The position numbers were made by a program, and so were the translations under genes. A DNA stretch of 64,000 nt from the IMG/VR virus record IMGVR_UViG_3300031758_000022, positions 1 through 64,000 of that record. One strand, 5' to 3'. The notes beneath the pieces were generated by a model. The model saw only the letters and a list, made by a program, of their open reading frames with translations, was not told the DNA's origin and did not search any database. Positions within the stretch are counted from its first letter, which is position 1; every line of letters starts with the position of its first letter. Origin of the DNA: a virus. Positions 11,501 to 58,993 of this stretch are shown in pieces.

Positions 11501-14500
11501 TGCTAAGCGTTTTGCAGGTTTCCTAGATATTCTAGCAGATCCTAATAGTATTTATGCTATGTCGGATAGAATTATGGGTGCTATGAATAAAGCAAGTGAA
11601 AACAGTGCTAATCTAGTAAAAGAAGCTGTAAATAAGTTTAATAGTATAACAAACAATAATGAACTACTTCAAGACCTTGTAGGACTAAAAGTATATTTTG
11701 CACCAGAAGAAGTGGAGAACTTCTTTAAAAAAGGTATTCTTCCAAAGGTATTTTATGATGCTGGAACCGGATTACCTATTAAAGAAACAGATCCTAAGTA
11801 TGCAAAGATTATAGATTTTATTACAAGGTATGAGCAGCTTAAGGGTGTAACTTTTTCTGGTAAACCTGTTATGCCTCCTGCACCTGCACCGGGCACTCCG
11901 GCTTCAGGAGGAACATCAGAAGAAGTTGAGACAGCATCGGATGATAACTTACCTGAGGCAGAGGATGATGAAGAAGAGATTACAGATGAAACTCCTTTAG
12001 ATAAGTATCCACCAAAAGTCAAAGCTGAACTTATGGTTGAATACAATAAAGCTGTAGCAAGAGCTAAAAAGATAGATGCTTTAATTCCTACTATAGGAGA
12101 CTGGCTAGCAGATAGTCCTTCAGCAAAAGCTATTATAGAAAGAGCTTCAAGAAGAGGAACTATTGTAAAGAAAGACATTACAACTCAGATTACAAAAGAA
12201 TCACCTAAGTCAATTGTGGGTCCTACTCCAGCTCTTGCTGGTATCTATGATACACCATTTAAATTGGTTCAAGGTGTTGGTTATCAGCAAGTAGATGATG
12301 ATGGAAAGCCTGTAACAACTGCTGAGGGAGAACCTATTATTGCTAGAAGAGTTACTTCTATTATTGACAAAATAATAGATAAAAGTGAAGAGTCATTAAA
12401 ATTAGCTCAAGATCGTGGTAATATTTTGGATCAATGGCTTAAAGATTTTTCTACTCCTGATCCTACTACTGGTATATCTCAGAAGGATTATTATCTAAAT
12501 CTTATTGCAAACTACAATGCTAAACTTCCTGGATCAGAAGCAGACCTAGCTGATTATGTTATGACGCTGATAAAGGGCACAGAACTTACATTAAAAATTC
12601 AAGGTGATAAGCTTGGTATTAATTTTAGTCCTGGTACTGGTAAAGATCTAGCTAATATAGGTATGGAGTTAGCAAGAACTTTTCATGATTCTGTTTGGTA
12701 TCCTGATGTACCACCGGTTGTTGGTATGATTGAAGGTAAACTTACCGCAGGTACAATGGACTTACTTCTTGAAAAAGATGGTAAGTATTATATCATTGAT
12801 TTCAAGACATCCTTTAAACCACGTAGAACTAAAGAGTTCTATACACAATCAGATAAGGTTCAATTAAATGCTTATGCTGACAATTTTGAATCTATGACAG
12901 GTTTAAAAGTTGAAAGGCTTCATATCTTAAATCTTCTTGTAAGTTCTAGTTCTGATGGTAAAAACATTACTAGTATAAAATTTGATAAGTATCCTAAAGC
13001 TGACAGTGATAAAAAGACAATTCTTAGTCCTCCAATAACGCGTGAATCTGTAAATTCTATTCTAGGATATAAAGAAGGAAAAGCAGATGAAGAACCTGTA
13101 GTTACAGATGCTATAAAGGCTATAGAAACAAGAAGACAGGAAACTATATCTAACATTCAATTTGTAGAAGAGAGAAATGAGTATGCTACATTATATGGTG
13201 AACAAAAAGAAAGACTAAGAGCAAAAACAGAAGAAGAATTACTATATAAAATCAAGGCTGCATATGATGCAGAACTAGTTGCTGAATACAGGAAGCAAGA
13301 AATAGCAGAGTTTAGAAGAGATGTAGAAGATGCTGAGTCATTTATAGTAAATGGTAGAATAGATTCTAAAAAAGTAAAGGCTTCTAGTAATGCAAAAGCT
13401 AAAGAGATCTATGATAGGTATGATGACCTGATTACCCCACTACTAGAAGAAGCTAAACCTGCTCCAGCAGTAGACGCTGCTCAACAAAAAACATTATTTA
13501 AGGTTTTTGAAAAAGCTTTCTATGAAGGTAATGATAAAAGGTATGACGACATATCAGATGAAACGTTAGCTAAGCTTTCTCCTGCTACCCGTCAGTATCT
13601 GCTGAGCCTTTATGAAACGCTAAAACCATTCAACTCTACTTTTCAAAGAATGGGTAAAATTCTGGACAAGCAGACTAGCAAAGAAATTACAACAGAAGAT
13701 CAGAAGATAAAATATGTTACCTCTTCTTACTTTGGTGGATTGGGTCGCGGATCAAGTGAGTTAGGATCACCCGCAAATCCTAAACACAAGGATCTGGTGC
13801 TACCAGTTCCTACTGCAGATGTGCTGACTAACATCAATGAAGTATTTGGTGCAAAATTAACTGATGCAGAACTAGCTGCTTTAGAAGGTAAACCAACTAC
13901 AACAAAAGTAGATTGGAATACAGTAATAGATAGAGCTAAATCAGCACAAGAGATAGATAAGATCATGGATCAGATCTATGCTGCTAATGCGTCTACTCCA
14001 GAGTTAATTGATAGAGCATTAGTTAAAAAAGAATCATTTAAAAAATCTAAAGCTAATGTTCCAACAAGATTTGGAGGTAAATTAATTTATGCTCCTTATG
14101 GTACTGTTGACCCAATCATCTTTGAAAAGTATGATATTGTAAATGCTGATGATGTTTTAAAAGAAGTTCTTAGAGAAAACAACTTATCAGAAGATCCTAA
14201 TTTTGAAGAAAAGCCAGGGGCAGTATTATATGCTTCTCCAAAGAGAGCTATTCTTGAAAACAACGTAAAAGAAAAGATAAAAGAACTTCTTAAGTCTGGT
14301 AAAACTGTAGTATCTTCTAATTGGTTCTTAAGAGCGGAAGCTAATGTATTTAGCTCACCAAGTTCTTCTAAGGCTTTGTTTGTAAAAGAAGCAGACTCTG
14401 CTGAATCAAGCATAGATCAGTTTAATGAATATGTTGCTAAGGAACCAGCTAGACAGGCAGCTTATGATATAACTCAACAAGAAGGTTGGGAAAGTATTAC

Positions 14501-15044
14501 AACTGATACCAAAGGAAATCAAGTTGAAAAAAATACCAATAAAACCATAAAGGAACTCTTTGAAAAGGGTGCAATAAACTCTACATTTGTAGAGATGCTA
14601 GTTAAAGCGCCCAATCTTCAAAAACTACAAGATGCTCTGGCTCAATACCGTATTCCTGAAAACAGATCTTTGTTTAACAAGAAAGATAAAGAAGGAAATA
14701 TTGTACCTATAACTTTTGAAGAACTTGCTGAAATTTATGATAAAAGAGTGAGAGCTTTTTATAATCAAAATTTAATAGAACTAATGGATGTTGCTCAAGC
14801 TAATGAATTCATTTTTGACTTAAGAGATAAACTTGCTTCTGAAAAAGAAGGAATTGTTGATAATATGGATGAAGAAACAAAAAATGAGATTAAAGAAGCA
14901 GTAAATTCTGCAACAGATCCTGCTACTAAAATTAAGGATATTCAGAATCTTAATGATGAAGTTAATAATACTTCTGAAGAAGAAATTGATAATGAGTTCC
15001 TTGATAGTCTTAAGGAATGTGATAATGGAAAACAAATAGATTAA
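8580..15044 (+). CDS. Giant virion protein with PD-(D/E)XK nuclease domain
   Basis: 2154 aa. The one clear enzymatic region is near residues 1370-1435. GTMDLLLEKDGKYYIIDFKTS gives Asp1394, Asp1407 and Lys1409 of a PD-(D/E)XK fold, and a QLNAYADNF element follows, equivalent to the Gln motif of Cas4/RecB-type nucleases. The N-terminal 250-330 region is Ala/Gly-rich with hydrophobic helices (for example AALKA-like and GFLMGGLAGG near 570) that could touch membrane during ejection. Long Glu/Lys coiled-coil-like helices fill 600-1000, and an acidic Pro/Glu linker lies near 1115. It is the first of three giant neighbours around the polymerase. A role in the ejected transcription complex or in processing host or phage DNA is inferred; the nuclease activity is predicted from motifs. 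Confidence 0.82.
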   Translation: MAENTQKPPITPESIEQQLRSINSYIDSGLPKILAGMDAAEQNQGMQIASMKSFLPQPTAPNIPKIQTLVNGDAFIGPNRGTKQGTFTSGFEYIKALSDNDKIKLSTTADPFFYAKGTSFNGSHEGYNFNRYYAHPNFKKLGFSIYKDNEATYNANSSWFDDFTRMSKTLPSLILNGAWSNLKNWGVTGLEADTETSAQMQYDLGIASSSKQGFGAFTTNLIGNFGYTIGIIGEMVLEDMALRAAAAASRNPVLMATAGVRTTSNLKNLGRAMSVMAKTLNNADKARTFSKAALSGLKSAGKTIMPFQEFGEFATDLMNPNSAISRLADGAKMARGVGSFYRGMKEINAVTSESRLEGGFTQNELIKKEYDAFIEEKGREPNDQENEFIYSNAVKGSTRTILANVPAIFVSNRITLDLALNPYGKLSRTFASNTLKSPLFKVVKGVDGKLSVEAKGLKAGFENLKGITKVFNKDFYKGTPTKLSDTFGIKNIGRNVGGGIRYFKANLMEGLQETYQEGVQVAVEDYYLNKYYADLYSDPMIAANHSIAAAIEKGFESQISSQGLDVFASGFLMGGLAGGVQNKIMQPLAFSGMRAKDYIYKTNEYKTYQEEEKQRLQNFADAVNDVRARRAEYASWLDENVKAQRDLQAEYEAWSEMGDEHEVENTKKDSMFMHVMTLLRYNRYNVFQDELEGLKDLTDDELSEAFNDQGEDKSKTRERLETAIKKANDVKKWYDKVNEKIVNPFKPNIFDRDRDPKGYGQELMGYKAFETAKQALMFNEYSYQYAIEKIESLLNKASLNSPLGNVASSDFSILYRLVDLQSRIKNDLPTEIDFLNGGDATQKKEAKKKQTQLDNLKDLNDEMKRFMGIHNLIERAASGSTEAKTQLSEIANAIKGKVAVVSEPDPITGQISMEFDSEEISDDAFVMSYQKDQLWSSYAKYSKNIADLNNVFPILESLENSFDDFTSFLKLNNDAKRFAGFLDILADPNSIYAMSDRIMGAMNKASENSANLVKEAVNKFNSITNNNELLQDLVGLKVYFAPEEVENFFKKGILPKVFYDAGTGLPIKETDPKYAKIIDFITRYEQLKGVTFSGKPVMPPAPAPGTPASGGTSEEVETASDDNLPEAEDDEEEITDETPLDKYPPKVKAELMVEYNKAVARAKKIDALIPTIGDWLADSPSAKAIIERASRRGTIVKKDITTQITKESPKSIVGPTPALAGIYDTPFKLVQGVGYQQVDDDGKPVTTAEGEPIIARRVTSIIDKIIDKSEESLKLAQDRGNILDQWLKDFSTPDPTTGISQKDYYLNLIANYNAKLPGSEADLADYVMTLIKGTELTLKIQGDKLGINFSPGTGKDLANIGMELARTFHDSVWYPDVPPVVGMIEGKLTAGTMDLLLEKDGKYYIIDFKTSFKPRRTKEFYTQSDKVQLNAYADNFESMTGLKVERLHILNLLVSSSSDGKNITSIKFDKYPKADSDKKTILSPPITRESVNSILGYKEGKADEEPVVTDAIKAIETRRQETISNIQFVEERNEYATLYGEQKERLRAKTEEELLYKIKAAYDAELVAEYRKQEIAEFRRDVEDAESFIVNGRIDSKKVKASSNAKAKEIYDRYDDLITPLLEEAKPAPAVDAAQQKTLFKVFEKAFYEGNDKRYDDISDETLAKLSPATRQYLLSLYETLKPFNSTFQRMGKILDKQTSKEITTEDQKIKYVTSSYFGGLGRGSSELGSPANPKHKDLVLPVPTADVLTNINEVFGAKLTDAELAALEGKPTTTKVDWNTVIDRAKSAQEIDKIMDQIYAANASTPELIDRALVKKESFKKSKANVPTRFGGKLIYAPYGTVDPIIFEKYDIVNADDVLKEVLRENNLSEDPNFEEKPGAVLYASPKRAILENNVKEKIKELLKSGKTVVSSNWFLRAEANVFSSPSSSKALFVKEADSAESSIDQFNEYVAKEPARQAAYDITQQEGWESITTDTKGNQVEKNTNKTIKELFEKGAINSTFVEMLVKAPNLQKLQDALAQYRIPENRSLFNKKDKEGNIVPITFEELAEIYDKRVRAFYNQNLIELMDVAQANEFIFDLRDKLASEKEGIVDNMDEETKNEIKEAVNSATDPATKIKDIQNLNDEVNNTSEEEIDNEFLDSLKECDNGKQID

Positions 15045-15056
15045 ACATTATAAAGC

Positions 15057-18000
15057 ATGGTTTGCGTACTTTCTGAAAATCAAGAAAGAGCTTTCTTAAA
15101 AAGAATTCTCAAAGATATTCAATCTAATATTAAAACGGGGGTGCCATTTGACCTAAATGGTTATATGTCAGGCATTTACAAAAAAGTACTAAATGCTACT
15201 AGTAATCCTGATATGGCTATTACTTATGCTGCTATTATTCCAGAGAACTTAATGAGTTTATTGGGACCTATTGCAGAGATAAGAGATTACCTTATTCCTT
15301 CTATTGCACAGATTAATGAGCAAGCTAAAGCTTATGCTGCAGATCCTATGAATGTTGTATCTTTTCTGGGTCTTGATCCAGTTAAAGATCAAAAGGACTT
15401 AGAAGCTGATATTAAAAGTCTTAATGAAAAGAAAGATGCTGCTGACAAAGAAGATGAAAAGAGATCTAATATTGCCAAAGCAAGTATCTCTATAAGACCT
15501 TATACATTTGATAGTACAACAGGAGATGAAACAGATCCTGACCTAATGTTCAGCTATGCTTTCTTGAAGAATGTATTAAACAATGGACAGACTGACTCGC
15601 AAGATACGGGTTACTATGTTACATTGATGAGTTCTAAAGAAGCATTACAAGGTATCACAGTTAATAACAAATCTTATACATCCGGTGTATTACAAGTAAT
15701 TACAGATGTTAATGGTAACATCTTGTACTTTAATAATGATTATCAACCGGTAAATAAGGAAGAGGGGGCACCTGTATTCTTTAGACTCCGTGAGAAAAGA
15801 GATACTGTTCAGACTATCAAGGAGCTTATGTTTACTCAGAACTTCACAACAGAAGAAGCTGAAGAGTATATAGAAATACAGAGAGCTAATGTAAAAAAGA
15901 AAAAGGATTTTGTTCTTGCTGCCCCTGGTAGAAAAGTAGTACAGAGTATTACAGGTGGTAGCTACGGCTATATTCCTGATGAAGACTCTTATACAGATCT
16001 TTCTACAGCAGAGGACATGTCAGAGAATCCTCTAAAGAGAACTAATCAGTTCAAAGCTTTTAGTAGAGGTGCTTACAAAGATGTGGTACCATTTAAAATG
16101 AATTCTGTAGATTCAGACCAAGAGTTTCTTGAGGATGCAATCAACATCTTACTAGGAGAAAATCTAGTGGATGAAAGAGGTAAAAAATCTCCAGAAACAC
16201 TTCTTGTCTATAGAGAGAAGTTTTTTCAAGTTTACTTTGGTAACAACTATGAGAATGTATTCTTTGGTAAGAAAACAAAAACTAGAGGTAAGCTTTATGT
16301 AATGTTTGCCGATGGTAAAAAACTTGACAAGCCTGTTATTGCTACTAGAGAAAATCTTAGAGATGCTTTAGTAAACAACATTGTAAAAGATAATAAGACA
16401 GGTGAAATGGTCCCTGTACTACATGCTTATAACGTTTATTCTAAAGATGGTGAAACAACACCTTCTTACCAAAAGAATACAGATGGCACCATTACTTTAA
16501 AAGGTAATGGTACTAGTCCTGTGCAGTATAGAAAGTGGCTTCAGAATAACTCAAAGACCTTAAAACCTTTTGATTCTACAACAGGAAAGTTTCAAGACTT
16601 GAATGGCTATTTCATTTTTGAAACTATGAAAGAGCTTGAGGGTGAGGGAGTTACAGAACAGAAGGTTAAGACTGAGAAAGAAGTAACTACTAGTGGTACT
16701 ATTACTTACTCTACTACTGAAAAATTAAGAGAGCTTCATAATGAAGGTAAGCTCTTGTACACAATGCGTGTATCAGAAAAACAAGCAGCATCAGAGAAAC
16801 TTAAATTCAAGGGTCTTACTCCTAATAAACATTTTGGTAATCCTTTTACTGGAACAGATGTAAAAGGAACTATTCCTATGGAGGATATTTCTGCTGCTGT
16901 AGATGCTTATGAAAAATGGCTTGATGGGCAGAATGTATTTACAGATAAGAATGGTGAACTCCATGATCTATCTGATATTGCTGATAGAAGAGCTTGGATT
17001 AATTCTCAGATTGATAGACTTAAACTTAAAGGTGGTGCACAACTAGGCTACTTTAAAGGTGGCTATAGAAGTCATGCCGATGTTCTTAATGAAAGAATTA
17101 ATGGTAAGGCTGATAAGCAAGTTGAAACAGCTACTACAAATAATCTTGCTATAGAAGTAATCTCTGAAAATTATACTGTTAAACTACTTAGGGCGAATCC
17201 TAATAAACTTTTTCTGTTTGGAGATAACAATACTAGAACTGGTAAAGGTGGTCAAGCTATTATTAGAGATGAACCTAATGCTGTGGGTATCTCTACAAAA
17301 TTATTACCTAAGAATACCCCAGAAGCATTTATGTCAGATGATCAACTTGCTGATAACAAAGCAGTTATAGATTCTGATATTAAAAAAGCAAAAGAAAAAG
17401 CAGCTAAAGAAGGTAAAACTATTGTATTGCCTAAAGGAGGATTTGGTACCGGATTAGCAGCACTTGCTACAAAAGCTCCACAAACATTTGCTTATCTAAA
17501 TCAAAGACTTCAAGAGGAGTTTGGATTTGATAATGTTTCTGGTAATATATCTAAATCTGCAAAATCTGAAGCTAGTCCTGTAACACCAAAACCTGTATTC
17601 CAAGCTAAAACTTTTAATAAACCTAGTGCTGCTTCTAGAGAGATAAAAAAGATTAATGATAAAGACACTTTAAATAAACTTAAAGGTCAAGGTATTATTA
17701 ATGAGTCTGTTACAGAAGAACAAATTAATGCTGCTAAAGAATGGTATGACAGCCATCCTATGAGTCGATTTGTTCCATATGAGGTAATGTTTAACATTAT
17801 TAATACAGAGAACCCTAACTCTATTGCTACTTTTTCTAGAGCAGGTATTGTACTTTCTAGAGCAGGTATTGTACTTTACAAAGGGTCAAACTTTGCAGAT
17901 TTGTACCATGAGGCATGGCATGCCTTTACTCAGATGTTTCTTACAGAAGCTCAACGTAAAAAACTTTACAAAGAGCTTTCTAATAAGTCAGGTACTTTCA

Positions 18001-21000
18001 AAGCATTTGATGGAACTACTGTTACTTTTAAGGATGCTACATCTAAGCAACTAGAAGAATATCTAGCTGAAGACTTTAGACAGTTTATGCTTAATGGCGG
18101 TAAGTTTAAAGGTGCAGATAAAGAACCTGTAAAGAAATCTATCTTTAAAAATATACTAGATTTCCTAAAGGCTGTATTTAATATTAGCAATGACACCATC
18201 TACAATGATGAAAAAGTTAGTAACCTTCTAGAAGAAGTATATACTAAACTACGTCTTGGTGATATTAATCCTATTCCTTATGGGCTTGAAAACTCTGAGT
18301 TTACTAAGCTAGATAAAATTAAAGCTGTTAATCCGGATGAGCAAGATCTTCTTGATGAGATGGGTTATGCACAGGCTATGAAAATAGTTAATGCTATTGA
18401 TGCTGTATTCTCACAAATAGTAGATAAAGTATCTAAAGAGCACGGTGTTAGTTATGCGGCAAGTCTGTTCTCAGATCCTGCAAGAAGAACTGCAGCTTAC
18501 AATGAAGTAATTGCTGAGTTTGTAACTAAGTACACAGACCTTTCTGATAAGCTTGTTAATATGTCTACTGATGATGTAGGGTATGAAAAGCTCTATAAGT
18601 CAGTTAAGACACTAGAACTTGCTATTACTAACTTTGCTCCTGCTTCTACATTAGGTCAAGAACTTACTCAAGATGATGTAATTAGTGCAATTCAAAAAGA
18701 CTCTGGTATTCTAGGGTTCCACTTGAAAAAGTCTAAGTATCTACAGTTTGATGAAACATATGACCTTATTAATAACTTAGAGGAAGAAGATCCGGATTCT
18801 AAGACTGTAAAAGACAAAGATGGTTATAGCCATAAATCAGGAAATGAAATTTCCATGAGAGAACTGGCAGCCAAAGAAGTCCTTTATACTATTAGAAGTC
18901 TATATAAATATGAGGGTGGAAAGCTTCAGTATGATGACTTTGGTTTCCCACAGCTTAATGATTTTGATGTAAGCTGGAATAAGATTCAAAAAGCTTTGTC
19001 TGGAAGCATGGGTGTAGAAGATATCTACAAAAAACTCCAAGCTTCAAAAGATAAAGTAATGCAACATCTTTTAGAAAAGCTAGGTAATCCTGATGCTCAA
19101 ACCGGTATAGAGAATGATCTTACAGCTGAGAGCATAGCTCAAAATGCTTTGTGGACAAACTTTACACAGACCTTTACAGCTACCAGAATTCCTTTGATTC
19201 AACTTACTGTTAACTTCCAAATGGATGATAATGGTAATTATATTCTAGAACCTAAGCCTGGAAAAGCCCAAGGAGATCTTAATAGAATTGCTAAAGCATG
19301 GGAAGTAAACTTCAGCCGTCCTTATAAAGAGGGTGAGAGAAAGTACATTGTAACTAAGAAAGTAGATAGAGGTGAAGGCAAGACAAGCTTTACAAGTAAC
19401 TATCTTAATGTTTCAGAAGTTCTCAAAGACTTTAAAGACTCCTATAAAACTAAGCCTATAGACTTTTTAAGAAGTCTTGGTATGGATGTATCTGCAGTAC
19501 CTGAAATTCAGAATGCTCTTAGAACTAATCTGCGTGTATTAGTAAATGGACTGTGGACAAGACTTAACCATATAAACAATAATAATAAAGACAAGAAGAT
19601 CTTTATCAATAGTATAAAGGATCTTATCAATATTAAAATTGATGGTAAGACTGAGGACAACTCTTATAAAGAGCTCTTAGCTCTTGAGAGTAGATACTCT
19701 GACTTGTATGGCACCGGTATGGTGTACAATGCAAGTGGAGATGGTCAGTTTGAGTTCTCTAAAAATGGAACATTCACTGTTCAGATTAATTCACTTAATG
19801 CTGCAAAAGGGTATAATGAGCTTATTAGTGACCCTAAAATGTCACATTTGGATTATGAAAGAAATCCAGCAATGCGTAATAACCTGATCTTAAAGGCTTT
19901 ATTTGGTGAAAACCTAGGTGCTAAAATTAAACAAGAGACTCCAGGTGGTAGAGAGACCTTTGCTAAAATTGAGTTGATTAACTCTAGTGGTGTTTCTGTA
20001 ACTATAGATAATGAGTTTGCAAACATTGGTATTGCTACCTCTGATGCAGATGAGATTACAAACCTTTTGCAGAACTTCTATACTACACTTATATATGGAA
20101 CTCCTGCTACAACTCAGCACTCAGATAAGTCTTCAGCTTATTTGTATAAAATAGTATTTCCTAGTGGTAAAAAGAACTATGTAAACATATTTAAGTTTGC
20201 TCAGTACAATAGTGACAAAGACATTGATCTAACTGCAGGTAATCTTGAGACATTGTCACACTTTATGACCTTCTTAGATTCAGAAATTCAAAGAATGGTT
20301 AAGCTAAGAAACGGTGATGAGGCTGGATTAGTTACTGTTGGAGATGACCTGTATAAAAATATAGGTGATAAGTTTGTAACCTTTAAAGATATTCTTAGCC
20401 CAAAAACTAAAGCTAAGCTTGAAAAAGGAAAATTCATTTCAGAAAACTTCCTAGAAAAGATCAATAGTGCAAAGGGTACAAATTTAAGAAGAGACATTGA
20501 AGCTGATATACTAGCATACTTCAACAACATTGTAGGTGAGTTTAAAAAGGATGGAGCTAAGTTTGGTTTGCAAAAAAATCAAAAGCTTATGAAATCCGTT
20601 AGAGATCTTTTCTTAAACTCTGAAGAACTCCCTTTGAGTCTTTATGAAAAAGAAAATGAAAACTATCTTGATGAGGCCATCTTTAGATCATTTGTACTGA
20701 ATGACTGGATTCATAAGCATGAAACAGGTAATCTGTTTTATGGTGATGTAGCTCTTTATAATCTTAAAAAAGAAGAGTATCATAAGAGAAATGCAGCATT
20801 TGCAGCTACTGGGGAGATTATGCGTACTGACAATGCTATGCTTAATATGCTAAATAACGTAGCTTCTAAATATAGTTATGCAGATAGTGAATGGTTTAGT
20901 AAGTCCGGATATAATAAAAACGGAGCTAAAGTATTTAAGAGAACAATGAATACTGCTGTTCTACAAGATACTAAGAGTAAATCATCTCTAATGGATCACT

Positions 21001-24000
21001 ATAAAGATGCTGTTATCAAAGCTGAAAGAAAAAGACTTGGTGATAAGTATGAAGAGAAAAGAGATGTATTTGAATCTAATATCAATAAGCTTTTCTCTGA
21101 GTATGGTAAGATGAAAGAAGGGGATGGTCAAGGATGGATTTCTTTTGATTCATACAGAGCCATGCTTATGAGTCTTGGTAAATGGTCACCTCCTCAGGAA
21201 CAATTGTATAGAAGAATCCTAAGAAATGAGAAAGTAGATACTGCTACTGTATTGAAGTTCTTCCCTGTAAAGAAGATGCAATACTATGGTCCATTGAAAA
21301 CCAATGGTTTACCTGTTGTGGGTTTCCATAAGTTTTCTTTGATGCCTCTTATCCCAAATGTTATTGAGGGTAGTAATCTAGAAATTCTTCATAATAGAAT
21401 GGTTGAGCAAAACATTGATTATGCTTTGTTCCAATCAGCATCTAAAGTTAATACTATTACTAGTAATGGTGTAGTTGATCAGTTCTATCTAGATAATAGC
21501 AGAGCATCTAATGAGGTAGCTTTTGCTCAACCGGGCTTTAAATTTACAAACAATGAGATCTTTATTGATTACTTTAAAGATCAAACAGAAGTTCATGATA
21601 AATTTAAGGGCACAATTCTTTTCTCAACACAGTTAAGAAAACTTGTAGAGGAAGGTCTTATGGAGCAAGGTGTACCTACTAGTTTTAGAAATGACTTGCC
21701 AGAAAAAGAGAAAAAAGAACTCTGGGAAAGTTTAAGTGAATCTGAAAAGCTAAAGGATCCTAACTATAATAAGCTTATAGCTTATGAAAGTCTTATTAAA
21801 AAGCATATTGACTTTAAAATAAAAGAGCTCAAAAAAGAAATGGCTTTGCATTTTAAAGATGGAAAGCTTGTTATGTCTCAAAAGTTAATTGACTTTATAA
21901 AAAAAGAACTTGAAAGACAAGACCTTGCTGAGCATGAAATTGACTTTATTAAGTTTAGTGAATTTAGTAACTCATTAGTTTATGACTTGAGTATTCACCC
22001 ATCTGCAGAAACAATTGAAAAACTGCTTGTTGCTATTGTAAATAAGAGAGTTGTTAAACAGAAAATAAACGGTGAAGCTTTAGTTCAAGTTTCTGGAGCA
22101 GGATTTGAAAAAGCTAATATTAGAAAAGCTACTGCAGAAGAAAACAGAATTTATGATGATGTAGGATTACCTACCTATGAATTAGGTCCTGATGGCATTG
22201 TTAGAGGAATGAAAGTTAAAATTGCTCTTCAAGGAGATTTCAAGAAACTACTGAAGCTTAAAGAGGTAACTATATTGATGAAAGCTAAGACAGGCCGCAC
22301 TAGATTGCAAGCTCTTAACATGCTTATCAAAGATGAGGCATGGCTTAATGAAGGTGATAACAGAAAGCTTGTTACTATGGCCGGTGTACGTATTCCTGTA
22401 CAAGGTCTTAATAATATGGAATTTGCTGAAGTTTATGAGTTCTTGCCAGAGGCTGCGGGTAATATGATTATCCTACCAAGAGAAATTGTAGCAAAGGCAG
22501 GATCTGACTTTGACATTGATAAGCTATTCATGATGTTCCCTAGTCTTGTAAAGACTTCTAAAGGTATTTCTTTAGTTAAATATAAAGAAGGAAGTGAAGA
22601 TACTGTTGATAAAGAGACAGCCTACCAACAACTATTTGATTTATACAGACAAAGAGAGGAAGCTTTTCAAAATGTTATTGACTACACTCAAGACAAGATG
22701 AATGAGTTTCCTGATGAGTTAAAAAGCGACTTTGAGGATACTGTTAAACAATACAAAGATGCTATTAGAAATGCTAAGAATAATCTCCAGGATGCCTTTG
22801 AGCGCCAGGAACAACCAGATCCAAGCCTATATGTAGAACTTAATGAGCTATCATTAGAATTGGAAGAGCTATATTCTACAGCTTCTAAAGAGTTTAGAGA
22901 TTATAAAAATGATCTTGTAAATCCTATTCAAGATAGAATTGATAATCTTACTTTAGAAATATCTAGTGCTTCAGCAAAAGGTATTGAAAATGATTTGCTC
23001 TTTAGTCTTGTAGATATTTTGTCTATGGAGCAGAACTTCTCAGATCTTATTACTCCTAACAGTACAGAATATGTAAAAACTATTGCTGATGATATCTCTA
23101 AGTATACAAGAGACTATGATGCATACAAAAACTTTACTACTGGAAGAGAGGATATTATTTCTGGAACCAGAATTTATGAGCTAGGTTATAATAGATACAA
23201 ACAGTCTTCAAATAACATTGGTAAAAAGACCCTAGGTCTTGGTGCTGTTGATAATACTTATAACACTCTGTTTAACAGGGTTGGTGCTTACATGGTAAGA
23301 ACTGCAGAAATAGGTTCTAAGAAAAACCCATATGACATCATCCAACAAATCAGAATGCCTCATAACACCATTAGCATTAATGATGAAGATGTTATATCAT
23401 TGTCTAATATCTATGATGTAGAAGGTAAGTATAGAATTTCAACTCTAATCAGCCAAATGATGAATGGTTGGGTTGACGTTGCTAAAGATGCTTGGATTTT
23501 TGATATTAATGGTAATAAAGAAGTCAGCCCTACTTTGCTATTTATGGTACAGGCAGGCGTGCCATTAGAACAGGCTATCTATTTTGCAGCACAGCCTATT
23601 GTTAGAAAGTATGTAGAAGAACAAAGAAAAGCTAAAAGTACTTTTGCTAAACCTCTTAATAGAGAACCTTCAAGTCCTAACATGTATAGGGTTGAAACAA
23701 GATCTAGAATGATTAAAGAACTTCTTCCAGAAGATTTTTATAATAATTATTTTGAACCTTATGTAGTAACAGAAAAAGGAAAGATATTAGGTAGTAAGTT
23801 TGACTCTAACTATATTAAGAAAACTATTTATACTGAGTTTGTACCAACCTTTCTTAATAACACAGGTGAGTATGAAACATCTGCTCCAGACTTTAGTGCT
23901 AATACTCTTAAGAAAACTTTAGATGGCTCTTCTACTAAACTTCAAGATTTACAGGTATTACTTCATTTTATAGAACTTGAAGAGATGTCTAGTGCCACTA

Positions 24001-26096
24001 CCCAAGTCAAACTTTCTATGAACTTTGATACTCAAAGATCTTCAACACTAAGGTCTGTAAGAGAATCTTTAGCAAAAACTCTTGCACTTAAAACTGATAA
24101 CAGGTTCCCAAATGAAATATTAGAAAAGCTTGAAAAGGAATCACCAATTGGTGCATTTAAGATTCATGATGAGATAATAAATCTTATTGGAGGAATGTTT
24201 ATTTTAAGAGATCATCCTTCTCTAAATAAGCTTATAGATGAGATGACTAATATTTATCCGGATGCCTTTACAGAAAAGTATGGTCATATATTCAAAGATA
24301 CAGAAGCACTTACAAATGCTATCAGAAATGACTTTACAAATTATGTGTTCCAAAGCTGGTTAATAGATCCTAACAGATTTGACCCAAAAGCTCCTTATAA
24401 TAATTTAGGAATTGACTTTGAAGTTAAAAAAGTTCTAGATCTAGAGAGAGGTGCTTTTGTAGAAGGAAACACTCTTTATGTTGATGAAAGAGCTCTAAAT
24501 GATCATGTCAAAGAAGATCTATACTCTTCAGAAAATTATTGGTTAAAACAGGCATTATCTCCTGTAAGCCCAATGTACTTACATGGTAATACAGAAGCTG
24601 AAAAGAAAGCTAAGTATTACAGATTTGTATATGAAAGAGAGACTTTAAGAGCTACAGTTCCTTATGATAACTATAAAAATACTCCTGACTTTGAAGAAAG
24701 AAAGAATGCTATTCTTATTTCTGGAATACTAGATGATTATAGCAATGCAGCTAATTTTGAAAAGATTGTTGGTAGAAGAGCTTATGAAGATTACATAAGA
24801 GATTTGGCTTTGCTAAATAATCTTAATGTCCAATTTATGTTCAAAGATGTTAACTCATATGCTACACAAGTAGATAAGTTGACAATGGATCATAAGAACT
24901 TACTTACTGATTATAAAGTACTTAGCTCATTGCTGTTTACTAATATTAGAGGAGTAAGAAATCTAAAGCTTTCAGAAATCAAACTAACTGCAGATGAAGT
25001 AAACATCTATCATGATGAACTAGAAAGACTTGCTGATCCTCGTATAATGAAAGTGGAAGACCCTTTTGAAAATGCTAGAATTAGTAAAATCTTTGCAGCG
25101 TTTCCTTTCTTTGCTTTCTTCCAAGCAGGTCAAGGGTCTAAAAATAGATACAGCCTATCAAGATTGATATCTACAAAAGTTTATAGTGAGATGTTAAGTG
25201 AGGCATCTGCCTTGGCTATTAAAAAGCTAGATGCATCAAAAGACTTTATAGATACCTATAAAACTAAATTTAATAATCTGTATGCTAAAGAAAAAAGCAA
25301 TGAGTTTGGTTTAGAGGAAGAAGAGGTTGAGGCTAAGTTGTTTACAGCTTTGTACATGAAAGATTATTCTTTAGGGGAATCTGATGAAAATCTAGAAGCA
25401 CCACTTCCAAAAGCTGCAAGCATGGGCTCTTCATACTATGATCCTAATGTTAATCTTTATGATATACATCCGGCTGCTAAATCAGAAACATTGGTTAAGT
25501 ACATTACTTCTAAAAGTAAAGCTAATAATAACCTAGTATTTGCTTTTGATGACAGTCTACAGCCATACTCTACAAAGTATCTACCTGTTAATACAGGTGC
25601 TAGAAAGAATGGTTATAATGGAACTACTCTTTTTGGAAGTATGCTGGCTAAGAGTGAGTTAAGTAAAGAACAAGCTGTAGGTCTTATAACAAAACCGGTT
25701 GCAGTTGTAATGGGTCCAGAAGAACTGTTTAGAGACTCTGATCCACAGCAACATGCTAATAATATCAAGAGAATTGATGCTTGGATTGAAAAGTTGAAAT
25801 CTCTTAGAGATGATGAGAAGAAAACCATTATCTTTAATCTAAAGGGTCATGGTCAAGCTTTCTTAGGATATGGTAGAAATGAATTTACTGATCATGCTGA
25901 AAGTAAGATAACCAAAGATCCAGTAGCCCTAGATAGTTTTGTATATTTGTCTGAGCGCCTGTATAAGGAGTTTGGCTATATCAATCCTATGTACAAAACT
26001 GTAAATAAGAAGAGCTATAGTGAAACAGTTTTAAGTAGCCAACCTATTACAGATGAGATGGTTAAAGAAAAATTACGTCAATGCTTTTATAGTTAA
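15057..26096 (+). CDS. Giant virion RNA polymerase with DFDID active site and accessory domains
   Basis: 3679 aa. GSDFDIDKLF places the metal-binding Asp triad at residues 2484, 2486 and 2488, preceded by RIPVQGLNNMEF and a FLPEAAGNMIILP strand. This is the signature of the crAss-like/phi14:2 virion RNA polymerase, a two-barrel enzyme injected with DNA to transcribe early genes. Upstream domains: a DUF4326-like segment (about 570-690, FGNPF near 593, SHADVL at 672-677); a DUF7831-like segment (about 705-830, FLFGDNNTRTGKGGQA and PKGGFGTG); and a zincin-type HEAWH at 951-955. A 21-bp in-frame tandem duplication lies just before HEAWH. The C-terminal 130 residues again include a Gly/His-rich small domain (NLKGHGQAFLGYG). 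It lies between two other giant proteins that probably form the same complex. Confidence 0.9.
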   Translation: MVCVLSENQERAFLKRILKDIQSNIKTGVPFDLNGYMSGIYKKVLNATSNPDMAITYAAIIPENLMSLLGPIAEIRDYLIPSIAQINEQAKAYAADPMNVVSFLGLDPVKDQKDLEADIKSLNEKKDAADKEDEKRSNIAKASISIRPYTFDSTTGDETDPDLMFSYAFLKNVLNNGQTDSQDTGYYVTLMSSKEALQGITVNNKSYTSGVLQVITDVNGNILYFNNDYQPVNKEEGAPVFFRLREKRDTVQTIKELMFTQNFTTEEAEEYIEIQRANVKKKKDFVLAAPGRKVVQSITGGSYGYIPDEDSYTDLSTAEDMSENPLKRTNQFKAFSRGAYKDVVPFKMNSVDSDQEFLEDAINILLGENLVDERGKKSPETLLVYREKFFQVYFGNNYENVFFGKKTKTRGKLYVMFADGKKLDKPVIATRENLRDALVNNIVKDNKTGEMVPVLHAYNVYSKDGETTPSYQKNTDGTITLKGNGTSPVQYRKWLQNNSKTLKPFDSTTGKFQDLNGYFIFETMKELEGEGVTEQKVKTEKEVTTSGTITYSTTEKLRELHNEGKLLYTMRVSEKQAASEKLKFKGLTPNKHFGNPFTGTDVKGTIPMEDISAAVDAYEKWLDGQNVFTDKNGELHDLSDIADRRAWINSQIDRLKLKGGAQLGYFKGGYRSHADVLNERINGKADKQVETATTNNLAIEVISENYTVKLLRANPNKLFLFGDNNTRTGKGGQAIIRDEPNAVGISTKLLPKNTPEAFMSDDQLADNKAVIDSDIKKAKEKAAKEGKTIVLPKGGFGTGLAALATKAPQTFAYLNQRLQEEFGFDNVSGNISKSAKSEASPVTPKPVFQAKTFNKPSAASREIKKINDKDTLNKLKGQGIINESVTEEQINAAKEWYDSHPMSRFVPYEVMFNIINTENPNSIATFSRAGIVLSRAGIVLYKGSNFADLYHEAWHAFTQMFLTEAQRKKLYKELSNKSGTFKAFDGTTVTFKDATSKQLEEYLAEDFRQFMLNGGKFKGADKEPVKKSIFKNILDFLKAVFNISNDTIYNDEKVSNLLEEVYTKLRLGDINPIPYGLENSEFTKLDKIKAVNPDEQDLLDEMGYAQAMKIVNAIDAVFSQIVDKVSKEHGVSYAASLFSDPARRTAAYNEVIAEFVTKYTDLSDKLVNMSTDDVGYEKLYKSVKTLELAITNFAPASTLGQELTQDDVISAIQKDSGILGFHLKKSKYLQFDETYDLINNLEEEDPDSKTVKDKDGYSHKSGNEISMRELAAKEVLYTIRSLYKYEGGKLQYDDFGFPQLNDFDVSWNKIQKALSGSMGVEDIYKKLQASKDKVMQHLLEKLGNPDAQTGIENDLTAESIAQNALWTNFTQTFTATRIPLIQLTVNFQMDDNGNYILEPKPGKAQGDLNRIAKAWEVNFSRPYKEGERKYIVTKKVDRGEGKTSFTSNYLNVSEVLKDFKDSYKTKPIDFLRSLGMDVSAVPEIQNALRTNLRVLVNGLWTRLNHINNNNKDKKIFINSIKDLINIKIDGKTEDNSYKELLALESRYSDLYGTGMVYNASGDGQFEFSKNGTFTVQINSLNAAKGYNELISDPKMSHLDYERNPAMRNNLILKALFGENLGAKIKQETPGGRETFAKIELINSSGVSVTIDNEFANIGIATSDADEITNLLQNFYTTLIYGTPATTQHSDKSSAYLYKIVFPSGKKNYVNIFKFAQYNSDKDIDLTAGNLETLSHFMTFLDSEIQRMVKLRNGDEAGLVTVGDDLYKNIGDKFVTFKDILSPKTKAKLEKGKFISENFLEKINSAKGTNLRRDIEADILAYFNNIVGEFKKDGAKFGLQKNQKLMKSVRDLFLNSEELPLSLYEKENENYLDEAIFRSFVLNDWIHKHETGNLFYGDVALYNLKKEEYHKRNAAFAATGEIMRTDNAMLNMLNNVASKYSYADSEWFSKSGYNKNGAKVFKRTMNTAVLQDTKSKSSLMDHYKDAVIKAERKRLGDKYEEKRDVFESNINKLFSEYGKMKEGDGQGWISFDSYRAMLMSLGKWSPPQEQLYRRILRNEKVDTATVLKFFPVKKMQYYGPLKTNGLPVVGFHKFSLMPLIPNVIEGSNLEILHNRMVEQNIDYALFQSASKVNTITSNGVVDQFYLDNSRASNEVAFAQPGFKFTNNEIFIDYFKDQTEVHDKFKGTILFSTQLRKLVEEGLMEQGVPTSFRNDLPEKEKKELWESLSESEKLKDPNYNKLIAYESLIKKHIDFKIKELKKEMALHFKDGKLVMSQKLIDFIKKELERQDLAEHEIDFIKFSEFSNSLVYDLSIHPSAETIEKLLVAIVNKRVVKQKINGEALVQVSGAGFEKANIRKATAEENRIYDDVGLPTYELGPDGIVRGMKVKIALQGDFKKLLKLKEVTILMKAKTGRTRLQALNMLIKDEAWLNEGDNRKLVTMAGVRIPVQGLNNMEFAEVYEFLPEAAGNMIILPREIVAKAGSDFDIDKLFMMFPSLVKTSKGISLVKYKEGSEDTVDKETAYQQLFDLYRQREEAFQNVIDYTQDKMNEFPDELKSDFEDTVKQYKDAIRNAKNNLQDAFERQEQPDPSLYVELNELSLELEELYSTASKEFRDYKNDLVNPIQDRIDNLTLEISSASAKGIENDLLFSLVDILSMEQNFSDLITPNSTEYVKTIADDISKYTRDYDAYKNFTTGREDIISGTRIYELGYNRYKQSSNNIGKKTLGLGAVDNTYNTLFNRVGAYMVRTAEIGSKKNPYDIIQQIRMPHNTISINDEDVISLSNIYDVEGKYRISTLISQMMNGWVDVAKDAWIFDINGNKEVSPTLLFMVQAGVPLEQAIYFAAQPIVRKYVEEQRKAKSTFAKPLNREPSSPNMYRVETRSRMIKELLPEDFYNNYFEPYVVTEKGKILGSKFDSNYIKKTIYTEFVPTFLNNTGEYETSAPDFSANTLKKTLDGSSTKLQDLQVLLHFIELEEMSSATTQVKLSMNFDTQRSSTLRSVRESLAKTLALKTDNRFPNEILEKLEKESPIGAFKIHDEIINLIGGMFILRDHPSLNKLIDEMTNIYPDAFTEKYGHIFKDTEALTNAIRNDFTNYVFQSWLIDPNRFDPKAPYNNLGIDFEVKKVLDLERGAFVEGNTLYVDERALNDHVKEDLYSSENYWLKQALSPVSPMYLHGNTEAEKKAKYYRFVYERETLRATVPYDNYKNTPDFEERKNAILISGILDDYSNAANFEKIVGRRAYEDYIRDLALLNNLNVQFMFKDVNSYATQVDKLTMDHKNLLTDYKVLSSLLFTNIRGVRNLKLSEIKLTADEVNIYHDELERLADPRIMKVEDPFENARISKIFAAFPFFAFFQAGQGSKNRYSLSRLISTKVYSEMLSEASALAIKKLDASKDFIDTYKTKFNNLYAKEKSNEFGLEEEEVEAKLFTALYMKDYSLGESDENLEAPLPKAASMGSSYYDPNVNLYDIHPAAKSETLVKYITSKSKANNNLVFAFDDSLQPYSTKYLPVNTGARKNGYNGTTLFGSMLAKSELSKEQAVGLITKPVAVVMGPEELFRDSDPQQHANNIKRIDAWIEKLKSLRDDEKKTIIFNLKGHGQAFLGYGRNEFTDHAESKITKDPVALDSFVYLSERLYKEFGYINPMYKTVNKKSYSETVLSSQPITDEMVKEKLRQCFYS
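17835..17876 (+). repeat. Perfect 21-bp tandem duplication inside the polymerase gene
   Basis: Bases 17835-17855 and 17856-17876 are identical and adjacent, encoding the heptapeptide SRAGIVL twice in frame. The copy sits 30 nt before the HEAWH codons. Perfect identity at all third positions means the duplication is recent or is an assembly artefact. Confidence 0.9.
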
Positions 26097-26101: not shown

Positions 26102-29100
26102 ATGAATAGTTGCCCTAATAGAATAAGTCCTGAATGGAAAGCTTTATCAGAAGCTGTAGGTGAATTTGAAGCTATGCGTGACTTTATGGAGTATGGAGAT
26201 ATCCGTACTCCTAAAGAAGTGCAACAGAAAATTAGTAAATCCAAAACAGAAAATTCTAAACCTATCCCTTTTAATAAACAACTTGATGATCTTCTATTAG
26301 ATTTTGTTAAAGGTCTTAAAATTAATGTAGTTGAGCAACCTGAGGAAATTGTTACTACTTTAAGGTCACTTACTGGGTCACCATTAGCTGCATTTGATGT
26401 CTTACAAAAGTATTTAGCAATAAAAGAAGACCGAAATCTAGAGACAGTACCAGAAGTAGTTGCATATATTGCCTATACTTTTCTTGGTCAAAAATCTAAA
26501 TTGGGAAAAGACCTTTGGTATAATATATCAAGTTGGGATAAATACGATTATTACTATAACAAGTTTGCTCCTTTTAAAAGATTAGGTGAACCATCTTTTA
26601 CAATGGATGATGAAGTAATTGAATCAGAAGATCTGTTTAAAAACAGAAATAACTGGGCTCATAGACAAGTAATAGTTGAGTTTATAAAACAAGGTTTAGT
26701 TGGTAATTTTCAAAAAGATATTAGTCCTGAAGTCACTTTTGATAATCCTGATTTAGATGCTAAGTTTTTTGCTAAAAAAGGATTCAAAAATCCTTATGTA
26801 GAAGGTAAACTTTTGTCTATCTGGAACAAACTTTACAATTGGATTAGAGAACATATTCTAGGTGTAAAAAAGTTTGATACATATAATCAAGAAAAGCTTA
26901 ATAATCTTCTGTTAGACATTGTTGATAATGTTTATAAAAAAGACTATAGTAAGTTTATTCGTGGTGTGTATGAGAAAGATGGTAAGCTTTTTAAAGCTGA
27001 TGGTACTGAACTTGAATTAAAAGATTATGATAAGACATTAGAAAAAGATCAATTTGCTAAGTCTCTTATTTTAAGGTTAGTAGAAAATCCTTATGTCAAT
27101 TTTAAACTTTCAGGATCACAAGTAATCAGAAAATATGGTAATTTGTGGCGTGATGTAAATGAAGATCTTCATGATATTGACGGTGTTATTACTCTTGAAA
27201 CATTTAGAAAAGAACAGAATGCTAAAAAGTTTTATGAGTGGATTACAACTCGTGGGTTAGAATTAAAAAATGCTGAGAGACGTAAGCAATTCACCAAAGA
27301 GATAATTCCATTTTTAGAAGAACAAGCTTGGTATAGAAATGTACAAGACATGTTTCCTTCTTGGACATTAGGTGCTACATTTATTGGAAAAGATCATAAA
27401 AAAGGTGAATCTGTAACTATATCTGGTTATATAGAACATCCAACAGAAACTGTGCTTGTAAAAAATGCTGATGGTACAGGAGCTAGTATGTTTTTTAAAC
27501 CTTCAGATAATGGTAAAATTTTACCTAAAAGATATGTATTAGATTTCTTTTTAAGAACTGCAGAAGGTAACTACCCTGAGATTTTTGATAATTATTGGAA
27601 AGATTGGAAACAAATCTTTGAAGCTAAAATAGCTATGGGGCGTTCAAAAGATATTAGTGATCTTATCTACTTTGATCCTTTTATAAATGATAAGTATAAA
27701 TTTACATCAAAAGGTTACAGATATTTTTCATTTTCTGAAACACAATCAAAAATAGAAAGCTCTGATATAAATTCTGAAGAAGCTAATGTTGCATTCTTCA
27801 AAGAATTAGGTAATTACAATAACAAGTATACTGCTCTTACAGAGCCTTTACTTGTTAATGAAGAAACTAATAAGAAAGACAGAGGAAATGAAATTGCCAA
27901 TAAGCTAGCTGCACTCCTTGCTAATAATATAGAAGGTCTTAGTGTTGAAATGGTTACTGAGGAACAAGCAGCTCAGATAATTCAAGATGCCGGTATTCCT
28001 TATAAAAATGAAGCAGCTTTCTATGTAGGTGATAAAGTATACTTTATTGCTGATAGAATGACTACTGAGATAGTATTCCACGAGTTTGCTCACCCTATTG
28101 TTAGATCTATAGCATTGTCTAACAACACCTTGTTTAATAATTTATATAATCAAGTAGCCAGCACACCGGAAGGAAGAGAACTAATCAATGCTGTAAAAAG
28201 AACCTATCCTGAGTTAAAGGAAGGTTCTGATCGTTTTAAAGAAGAGGTTATAGTATTTGCCATATCTAAAGCGGCAAATCTTAAATATAACAACAAAGCA
28301 AAAAGTACAGGATTTGCCAAGTTTATTAAGGATTTGCTATTTGCTGTCAAGCAGATGTTCCGCAGACTATTAAAAGGTCAAAAAATATCTATTGAGAAAC
28401 TTGACGTTGATACTACTTTGGATCAATTGGCTGAAATGCTTAATTCTGAGAAGTTTAAAATCAACACAGAAGTACTTAATCAAGAAGATGTTATAGCATT
28501 TGCTAGAGATATAAAACAGCAAGTAATGGATGACCTGCTAACATTAGAGCAGTCAGACATGAATAAAATTACCCGTGAGTTTTCTAAAACCTTCCTCAGA
28601 CAGAGAAAGATAATGGAAGCTACTAAGTATACTGAAGTAAAACAGTTGTTTGAAAACAAACTTAAAAAATCAGACTTAAGTGAAGTACTTAGTTATCTAA
28701 GAGAATATAATATTTCCGGTGAGGTATCATTTAAGACTGATGAAGAAGAAATAGAATATCTTACAAACCATGCTTTAGCCCTATATAATAGCTTAGAAAA
28801 GCTTAATAATATGGGTAAGAAGGCTGTGGGTCAGCTTAGAAAGATAGCTACTGAAGAAATTGATGATAAGCAGGCTTTATTAAGAGCCTCTAATCTTAAC
28901 AAGTTTATTGTAGACTGGCTTTCATTCTTGGATTATATCCAACAAGTAGCTGACAGCGAAGTATATAGAGATAATCTAACTCCAGATAATGCTCTGTTCT
29001 CATTGATTAGTGAAGCAAGAAATAACCTGCAAAGAGGTAAAAGATATACAGATGATATCTATAGCGAAGGTGTTGCCGACCTAATAAACACTCAACTAAA

Positions 29101-32100
29101 GCCTCTGAATGATAATATTGAAGCATACTATGAGAGAATAAGAACAAAGCTTAAAGCTAAAAATGCTCCTCAGTCTTTAATTGATAGATATGAAGAAGAG
29201 TACAATGAAGTAAGACTTACACCAGAAACTGTAAAGAAACTAATTGAAGGTGAACTTGGAGATGCACATGCTCTTAATAGTTTCTTAGAAGGTTATATGT
29301 ATAACCAAGATCCAGTAGTATTTGGATTTGCTTCTTATGTTAAAGATAGATATTCAGAAATGTATGCTGAAATACAAAGTAGCTTTAACAATTTCATTGA
29401 CTCTATTGATGGCTTAGCAAGTGCTGCTGGTTATAAAACAGCTTATCAAAGAATGACTATGGGTAAAGACCTATGGTTTCTAGATGCTGTATCTACTAAT
29501 AAAGAAGATAGTAAACCAAAGCTTGTATGGAAGTTCTTAACTCCATTCAGAAACTACCAAAAAGATTATAGAGATCTTAAAGATAGATTATCTGCAGCGC
29601 ATGATAAAGTAAATGAAAATAACTCTAATGATAATAACAAAGAGCTTATCAATGCTATCACTGATCTAGCAGCATTTGAAAAGAAATATATGAATCGTAG
29701 GTATACAGATGAATACTACGAATTGTATAATATGTTTAATGATGAGATTGGTAAAACGGCTTTCTTAGAAAGAGAAAAAATTATAGGTGAATTAAGGGCC
29801 TATAACGGAGAGATTACTGATCCGGAGGAGCTTCTTAATAATATTACTCTAAGTAGAGAAAAGCTTAAAGAACTTAAGCAATTGTCTTCTTTTACATATT
29901 CTGATGGTACACCAAAACCTATAGACTCAGATGATTATGCTGTTGCTAAAAGATTGCAGGAGTATAATAAACTAAGTAAAAAGTTCCATGAATGGAAGCC
30001 TAGAGAAGGCGCATTTGAAAGTGCATATCTTCATTTTGAAGATCTTGTTGCTACTAAGTATGGTAGAGGTAGTGAAGAGTATGATACAAGTATGGAAGAA
30101 TGGATAGAGAAAAATACTGTCCGTAAAACTTCTCAAAGATATTTTGATGATAGAAATAGAATCTTTACACAATTATCTGCTCTATCATCTAATGATGCTG
30201 TTCTAGAAGAAATTAATGAGCTTAGAGAAGAGTTGAACTCTTACATTGCTCCTTATAAGGATCAGAACTATATTCCTATTGGTTCAGATATACCTCCAGC
30301 AGTTGTAAAAAGAATTAAAGAGATTGAAGAAGAACTTAAAGAATTAAGAAAGAGTTCTTCTACAGCTCCAAAAGGAATGACTAAAGCTGAGTATGGTGTT
30401 TATAAACTATACAATGAAACTCTTGATGCCTATAAAATAGGCGCTGGAGCAGCACCTTCTGCTGACTTAACTCTACAGTATGAAGTTATAATAGAGAGAC
30501 TTGCTCAATCTAAACTAAGTCAAGAGGATATTGATAAATCACTAGAAATATCTCAGCTGTACTATGAGCTAGATCTTATTACTAAGAAGAGTGTAAGTCA
30601 AAACTATCTAGATACCTTGAATAGCTTTATTCAAAGTACCCCTAAGATGCTAGATTACATTCAAAAGAATTTGAATATTAGTGAGTTTAGTGAGTCAGAT
30701 GTTAATGATCTTCTTCTAAGAGAGCCTGATATGATTAATATGGCTGTCTTATTCAAAATGAATCCTGACTTTGCTGACTGGATATTAAAAAACCACAGCA
30801 CCTATACAAATCAGGCTGGGCTTAATACTTATTCACCTTTGTCTATATGGACATATAGCAGGCCTGCAAGTAGTGATTACTATGAGCAGACAATTATTTT
30901 TGATAATGAAGGTAATGAAATCAAAAGAATTGATGGAGTACCTACAGCTGAGTATACTTACAGAACTGTAAAAGACTTCTATGTTGATGATGCTGGTAAT
31001 GAAGTTAAACTTAAGACAGAAAGAAAAACCATTCTAGACTGTTTTAATGAAGGACTCTCTATTGAAAACGCTACTGTTGATATGCTAGGTAATTTCTTAC
31101 CTAAGATTAATAATACAGATAGGACTTACATCAATGAAGATTACTTTAACTTAGAGAAAAATGATCCTGCTAAGTTTAAGCTTTTAAATAAACTTATCCA
31201 AGAGCATCTAAACTTCCAAACAAAACTTCCATATGATAGCCGCCTAGACTTAGAGGCACCTAGATATGGCCAAGAAGACTATGAGATCTTTACTACTACT
31301 AGACAAAATCCTTTAAGTGTTTGGGCTGGTAAGGTAAAAAGATTCTTCTCTACTGCAGCGGATGACCTGGAAGAGGGATTGAACCCTACCTATATGAATG
31401 CATCTAATACTACAGACTTACTAAATGATGCTTATGCTAAGGTTCCTATTACTGGTAAGTATGATTTGCCTAGTGAACAAGTATCTATGGATGTCTTGAG
31501 AGGTATGACTAGATATATGCAATCTGGTATTAAACAAAAAACTCTTATAGATATGCTTCCTACAGCTCAGGCATTAAGAAGTATATTACAAGATCCTGGT
31601 AGAAATGAGGAAGCACTTAAGAGAAAACTAAAAGGTTTTACAGCAGTTGTTAACTTGTCAACCGGATATCTGTATCCTAAAAATTCTCAGCAAATGAGCA
31701 TAAGAGCTAAGGCTATTAATGCTTTTATTGAAAGAGAGTTTGAAGGAAAAACCCAAACAGGTTTTACAAAGAACATGGGAGGTCTTAATAAGTTTGTTAA
31801 TGGTATTTTTGGATTATCCTCTACATCATTCTTTGCCTTTAACTTACCATCTACCCTTAAAAATACATTTGGTTTTAAACACCAAGCTATGATTCAGGCC
31901 GCTGGAGGTAAGTATTTTACAGTAGGTGATTATTTGAAAGGAAGTATGTGGGCAAATGCTACATCATTTGAGATAAGTATGCAGCTTTATAAAACTACTT
32001 CTAGATCTTTGAATGTTCAGTTAGTTGAGATGATGGATCCACTACAAGGTAGATTGATGAAAAAAATCACTCAAGGTGTAGGAACCACTAGATCTTTATT

Positions 32101-51023: not shown

Positions 51024-51051
51024 AAAAAGAGGGATGTTACTCCCTCTTTTT
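51024..51051 (-). terminator. Intrinsic terminator 17 nt before the next gene
   Basis: AAAAAGAGGGA (51024-51034) faces TCCCTCTTTTT (51041-51051) around a 6-nt loop, followed on the minus strand by eight T. It lies immediately after the VWA gene, and the next ATG is at 51007. Confidence 0.88.
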
Positions 51052-52403: not shown

Positions 52404-52430
52404 ATTATATGGTTTTTAGTAGTGTGATTA

Positions 52431-58977: not shown

Positions 58978-58993
58978 AAAATTTAATAATTTG

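Follow-up and report, generated by a model that had tools for sequence, protein, structure and literature searches.

A predicted zincin-like metallopeptidase and exchanged small domains on the virion RNA polymerase chain of a crAss-like phage

We show, from matches between the segments flanking related polymerases, that the virion RNA polymerase chain of crAss-like phages gains and loses small domains, and swaps them with adjacent cargo genes, in two places, namely the stretch that precedes a zincin-like domain and the C-terminal tail. The case analysed in depth lies in a stretch of 64,000 nucleotides (the window) belonging to a virus record of 103,022 bases, in which a single ATG-started frame at 15057-26096 (+) encodes a chain of 3679 aa. 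Giant frames flank this gene on both sides, 8580-15044 upstream and 26102-33160 downstream; a crAss transcription block with comparable large frames, also containing a PD-(D/E)XK domain, is described in PMC7886860. The features of the chain and of its gene are as follows.

15057-26096 (+): crAss-like virion RNA polymerase chain, 3679 aa (ORF, tblastn and gp66 alignment)
16824-17102 (+): DUF4326-like domain, residues 590-682 (our own HMM; Pfam DUF4326 below cut-off)
17147-17542 (+): exchanged block with intact DUF7831 (Pfam match at residues 704-816; DNA identity to loci L101 and L102)
17664-18191 (+): predicted zincin-like metallopeptidase domain, about residues 870-1045, borders approximate (HMM, alignment, weak Pfam match)
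17907-17921 (+): HEAWH motif, residues 951-955 (motif scan, alignment)
18057-18059 (+): E1001, invariant glutamate and candidate third zinc ligand (alignment, 65 of 65 rows)
18846-24041 (+): part aligned with phi14:2 gp66, residues 1264-2995 (hhalign, E 1.5e-47)
22506-22520 (+): DFDID catalytic motif, residues 2484-2488 (motif scan)
25665-26066 (+): resident C-terminal DUF7831-like domain, about residues 3537-3670, without FGDN (BLAST, HMM, profile comparison)

The original prediction had recognised a crAss-like virion polymerase from its DFDID site, and by homology this is what the chain is. The DxDxD signature of these enzymes is present as DFDID at residues 2484-2488, and an hhalign comparison with a 45-row profile aligned residues 230-1754 of phi14:2 gp66 with residues 1264-2995 of the window chain over 1388 columns (E 1.5e-47). 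A tblastn search with residues 782-3679 against 50,697 phage records matched 39 of them, all at <60% identity, including the record of phi14:2 gp66, where this protein is annotated as the catalytic RNA polymerase subunit. Drobysheva et al. reportedly found in 2021 that gp66 is an active virion RNA polymerase. Both proteins have the homologous polymerase core with DFDID, whereas gp66 is 2180 aa long and is devoid of the N-terminal part that bears the zincin and DUF domains here. Extrapolated along the window chain, gp66 would start around residue 1035, just after the zincin, and end near 3425, so that the polymerase core probably spans about residues 1100-3400.

The polymerase, the adjoining zincin (by record annotation), the PD-(D/E)XK domain of the block and the polyvalent theme are already known. 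In the literature within our reach, most subscription papers lying outside it, we found no description of these domains on a crAss polymerase, of small domains swapped among the cargo genes of crAss phages, of terminal DUF7831 relatives, or of any fold or function for DUF7831.

Exchange of small domains among cargo genes

The flank set comprised 220 segments from 66 loci (65 N-terminal, 58 upstream, 52 C-terminal and 45 downstream), and matches across position classes were counted at E < 1e-6 over 50 columns or more. Sixty-five pairs matched in this way, none of them within one locus, involving 57 of the 220 segments and 44 of the 66 loci. Some are fusions with the downstream gene, giving matches of 600 columns and more, and the matches of <300 columns form 16 small clusters that do not equal 16 families, since linkage may split or join families. 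As a control, 64 polymerase cores had no match to N-terminal or upstream segments, and among downstream segments they matched only the cr108 frame, which is itself polymerase. The first control had produced 176 matches, 139 to C-terminal segments and 37 to one cr108 frame; C-terminal segments are not a valid control, because the end of the core as cut spills into them.

The N-terminal DUF7831 of the window polymerase is, judging from DNA identity, an exchanged passenger. A DUF7831-like domain had been predicted in the chain and is confirmed by PF25176, which matches residues 704-816 with 126 bits, the Pfam cut-off being 27, and E 7.4e-37. The block that encodes it, 17147-17542 or about 390 bp, has 85.6-87.2% DNA identity to L101 and L102, in which the copy is part of the giant gene that precedes the gene of the polymerase; the polymerases of the same two loci share only about 29-37% protein identity with that of the window, and the similarity fades at both edges of the block. 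The sequence at this site is shorter in the related polymerases L010, L014 and L022. The dN/dS values of the block (NG86), 0.134 against L101 and 0.066 against L102, indicate that DUF7831 has been kept under constraint by purifying selection. In G003 and G007-G011 the intact domain follows the polymerase match on the C-terminal side, in G006 it comes shortly after the DFDID region, and in G004 and G005 it belongs to long frames having no polymerase match. Free-standing copies were found in bacteria and phages, and BFVD contains DUF7831-like folds in large proteins of the gut crAss-like phages cr272_1, cr130_1 and cr131_1 (E 7.8e-5 or better).

The domain originally predicted as DUF4326-like gave 13 matches of our own HMM over the loci, and its DUF4326 label is weak. 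It is N-terminal in the window chain and in L077, and C-terminal in six other proteins of the distinct set. Pfam DUF4326 (PF14216) reached 15-16 bits against a cut-off of 25 (E 0.022-0.034) and matched two of nine rows at all, the best with a sub-cut-off E of 0.0095. True DUF4326 sequences were sought and found in none of nine genomes or records and in none of 247 genomes, while two queries had no phage match. The Pfam score being below cut-off in every test, DUF4326 was not accepted as a firm identity, and the domain is called only DUF4326-like. A long BLAST match had raised the suspicion that DUF4326 and DUF7831 reached L102 together; this idea was dropped, because the DUF4326 HMM has no match in L102 and the DNA identity starts at 17147.

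The small domain originally predicted at the C-terminus does exist, with the correction that it is probably a relative of DUF7831. Such a domain is C-terminal in 26 of 67 distinct zincin-bearing proteins, near the very end in most, the 67 including seven of <2800 aa, some of which are cut by the end of their locus. A profile of 23 C-terminal rows compared with DUF7831 gave E 7.3e-19, and 7.1e-16 against free-standing DUF7831 alone, with 0.12 for the reversed decoy; L101, L102 and L005, picked as true DUF7831, were left out of this comparison and are among the 26 rows of which Pfam DUF7831 matched 15. These two lines, the Pfam scan and the profile comparison, are independent, which the iterated-HMM E-values over loci are not, because that HMM contains the rows it matched. 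Taken alone, the row of the window is weak (profile E 0.0057; BLAST to the L101 domain E 4.5e-4) and has no Pfam match. The FGDN motif is present in none of the 23 rows, several of which end before that part. Given its family profile, the tail domain of the window chain is probably a degenerate relative of DUF7831, and with the Pfam-matched N-terminal copy and the FGDN-less tail family the chain would have an intact DUF7831 ahead of the zincin and a degenerate one at its end.

Could this terminal domain have been domesticated as a structural or packaging tail, having no small-molecule activity? The chances seem to us evenly balanced. Its position, mostly close to the end of those 26 proteins, is what such a tail would have, and so is the absence of FGDN, with the same limit that some rows do not reach that part; however, the domain is detected in only 26 of the 67 relatives, and the intact N-terminal copy is left unexplained by this alternative.

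Two regions of the protein encoded upstream, at 8580-15044 (+), may be mentioned here. Its residues 1636-1766 (13482-13874, +) have 55% identity to the N-terminal flank of the L015 polymerase (residues 642-777) and no convincing match in Pfam, which makes this a further domain that has moved. Its residues 1270-1441 match a PD-(D/E)XK nuclease (PF12705, E 1.1e-5) and also a PHROG exonuclease, so that here too a cargo protein contains an enzyme.

Predicted fold of DUF7831

As DUF7831 occurs also in other phages, in giant-virus proteins and in bacterial genomes, a hypothesis on its fold is useful beyond the present case. The model built from 19 rows had a pLDDT of 94.5. Foldseek returned nothing at E <= 0.001 against the PDB, a phosphatase being listed first, and structural re-alignment placed at ranks 1-7 the entry 2fg1, three entries of TARG1, the chikungunya virus macrodomain, Poa1p and the VEEV macrodomain. 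These seven rows have Z scores of 6.5-4.9, unrelated rows following from 4.6 down, and a Z <8 can reflect a common arrangement. We take 2fg1 to be a macrodomain, the title of the entry itself stating unknown function. Hence, in predicted fold, DUF7831 most resembles an ADP-ribose macrodomain. Macrodomains (TARG1, Poa1p, alphavirus nsP3) are the nearest fold to the model, and in our reading the N-x4-G-x-G-G that follows a strand in DUF7831 resembles the N-x4-G-G-G-G of a macro sequence, L130. They differ in that no significant sequence or profile match connects them to DUF7831: PF01661 (Macro) matched none of the 19 rows, and hhalign against 23 macro ORFs was null (probability 0.6%), so that a macro link by sequence was discarded.

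We consider it unlikely, if deserving of some credence, that DUF7831, rather than being a macrodomain, is an enzyme of the phosphatase type or of another alpha/beta kind. Phosphatases lead the PDB list of Foldseek, and profile comparisons with phosphatase families were as null as those with Macro families; yet re-alignment puts macrodomains first, at Z 6.5-4.9 versus 3.8 or less for phosphatases, and the invariant or nearly invariant columns of DUF7831 include no cysteine. From the predicted macro-like fold, our best guess is that the passenger would bind or remove ADP-ribose-type groups or signals early in infection, acting against NAD-based defence. The genomic context of free-standing DUF7831 genes is nearly silent on function: among ten neighbouring ORFs scanned from six of the 11 loci considered, relevant ones were present only in L105, namely a SLOG-family gene and a calcineurin-like phosphoesterase.

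The zincin-like neighbour of the polymerase core

By the conservation described below, the domain with HEAWH, a predicted zincin-like metallopeptidase, has long adjoined the polymerase core on its N-terminal side. HEAWH at residues 951-955 is the sole HExxH of the window chain, and the motif is present in 58 of 59 dereplicated relatives, a count biased by the fact that most loci were fetched with a query containing HEAWH. Among loci fetched via the polymerase region alone, five of six distinct proteins have it, the window record being counted and L007 being the one without. An HMM of the zincin built from 58 environmental rows matched seven of ten named phage records (E 3.3e-13 or better), namely cr4_1, cr7_1 (with TAG read as glutamine), cr10_1, cr50_1, cr118_1, cr108_1 and Dulem42, all of which possess HExxH in the form of HEAFH, HEAYH, HESFH or HEAWH. 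In seven of the ten records the homologous zincin shares a frame with the polymerase motif region and lies ahead of it; cr108_1 has its polymerase divided over two frames, and D[FY]DxD was seen in neither. The HMM had no match in phi14:2, crAssphage ZA and jaberico, which suggests that the domain is dispensable or replaced. In the alignment, all 65 rows have E1001, and all of them an E or D at position 1005; the HExxH columns are fixed by the selection of the rows, E1001 is not.

The combination of HExxH with a glutamate in the following helix, the model having helices both at the motif and at this glutamate, is the peptidase pattern given for polyvalent proteins in PMC5512222. Pfam provided a weak match of the region to Tox-MPTase2 (E 0.0014). 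The structural model is of moderate quality, with a pLDDT of 68.8 overall and >90 around the motif, and its structural list is weak, PPEP-2, PPEP-3 and Zmp1 being at ranks 1, 2 and 4 with Z 4.5-4.0; the profile compared with PDB sequences retrieved nothing relevant. A chance occurrence of HEAWH was rejected, as the motif recurs in relatives, in the polymerase-fetched set and in named phages, and is accompanied by E1001. The motif noticed in the original prediction is thus both present and conserved.

Lying just N-terminal of the core, the zincin would be a standing part of the machine, and most likely its task is to cleave the chain, either inside the head or once the host is entered; this would free the polymerase from its long N-terminal segment. 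No cleavage site was found. In crAssphage ZA and jaberico a zincin-type motif also adjoins the crAss polymerase, annotated as 'RNAP associated protein fused to zincin protease' or 'ZnMc_tr', but it is situated in the upstream gene, near the end of which HExxH is found, and its homology to the window zincin is not detectable. Phi14:2 differs again in having HExxH in gp65, the kinship of which with the window zincin is unproven. A gene split at the zincin junction was considered as a clue to cleavage and dropped, given the undetected homology in ZA and jaberico, and likewise for gp67 of phi14:2.

Quite unlikely, in our estimate, is that the zincin leaves the phage chain unprocessed and serves as an effector, cleaving a protein of the host once injected. 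Such a role is raised for polyvalent proteins in PMC5512222, according to which the virion RNAP of N4 is packaged unprocessed, and PPEP-type proteases do head the weak structural list; but an effector would be expected to move as DUF7831 does, and the zincin, unlike the exchanged flanks, has its place fixed directly before the core in environmental and gut crAss-like phages. By the account of that paper, the N4 virion RNAP with MPTase is comparable in joining an injected polymerase, a zincin and varied domains in one chain, and different in having a T7-type polymerase with the MPTase C-terminal of it. That these two unrelated types of virion polymerase, N4 and crAss, are both paired with a zincin would suggest a shared need in packaging or entry.

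In evolutionary terms, this raises a question: Can the extra domains be explained jointly? They are indeed separate from the polymerase core, as the original prediction held, for gp66 has its counterpart entirely downstream of the zincin. Neither outcome that it had named as telling against it, domains belonging to the core or a non-conserved HEAWH, was observed, the former being judged by homology and not from a full-length structure. The zincin is old and fixed and the small domains are exchanged, so that they differ in history and one explanation is unlikely to cover them all. Although the domains share one chain with the polymerase, it is highly improbable that they belong to its core and serve transcription, a reading disfavoured by the alignment with active gp66, which matches only sequence after the zincin, by the control in which polymerase cores never match N-terminal or upstream flanks, and by DUF7831 being found both inside a different gene and free-standing.

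The protein encoded downstream (26102-33160, +) has a second HExxH, HEFAH, at about residue 660 (near 28079-28093), and its homologue is in two frames, with the break just before the HEFAH region, in L003, L057, L061-L063, L065 and L066.

A polymerase carrying passengers

Several unrelated domains on one chain, in a set that differs among relatives, are the mark of polyvalent proteins. By analogy with crAss001 and phi14:2, from which we infer injection, the window chain would be a polyvalent cargo protein of a crAss-like phage. The reading towards which, on balance, we lean combines a polyvalent injected polymerase, a zincin and exchangeable flanks, perhaps acting on ADP-ribose-type signals. 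As established for the relatives phi14:2 and crAss001, the virion RNA polymerase would be packed in the head, ejected and refolded in the host, where, again by analogy with them, it would transcribe early genes. The N-terminal slot of the window chain would hold the DUF4326-like domain and the intact DUF7831, and the tail its degenerate relative. PMC10172136 argues that the cargo of crAss001 passes constrictions of <50 A partly unfolded; with such a passage, a small refolding domain could ride along, which fits exchange.

A wider reading is speculative and, to our mind, doubtful: crAss-like virion polymerases may be general delivery vehicles with two plug-in slots, before the zincin and in the tail, fed by recombination among giant cargo genes, DUF7831 may be a new branch of the macrodomain fold stripping or capturing ADP-ribose groups or signals at DNA entry, and the zincin may part the passengers from the polymerase. 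If this were true, the phage would arrive with its counter-defence attached to the polymerase. Should the flanks be exchangeable passengers, listing them would yield candidate early effectors that are testable singly. Phages of the crAss-like type are among the commonest human gut viruses.

Other genes of the window include a metallo-phosphoesterase at 56749-57741 (+; PHROG 221, E 1.9e-39), lying inside a block of genes on the minus strand, and, at 51051-53501 (-), a CobT-like protein (PHROG: cobaltochelatase CobT, porphyrin biosynthesis) beside a MoxR-like ATPase, neighbours that recall the MoxR-vWA chaperone pair presented in PMC7824862. The sole tRNA found in the window is a tRNA-Leu with anticodon gag at 58993-59082 (-).
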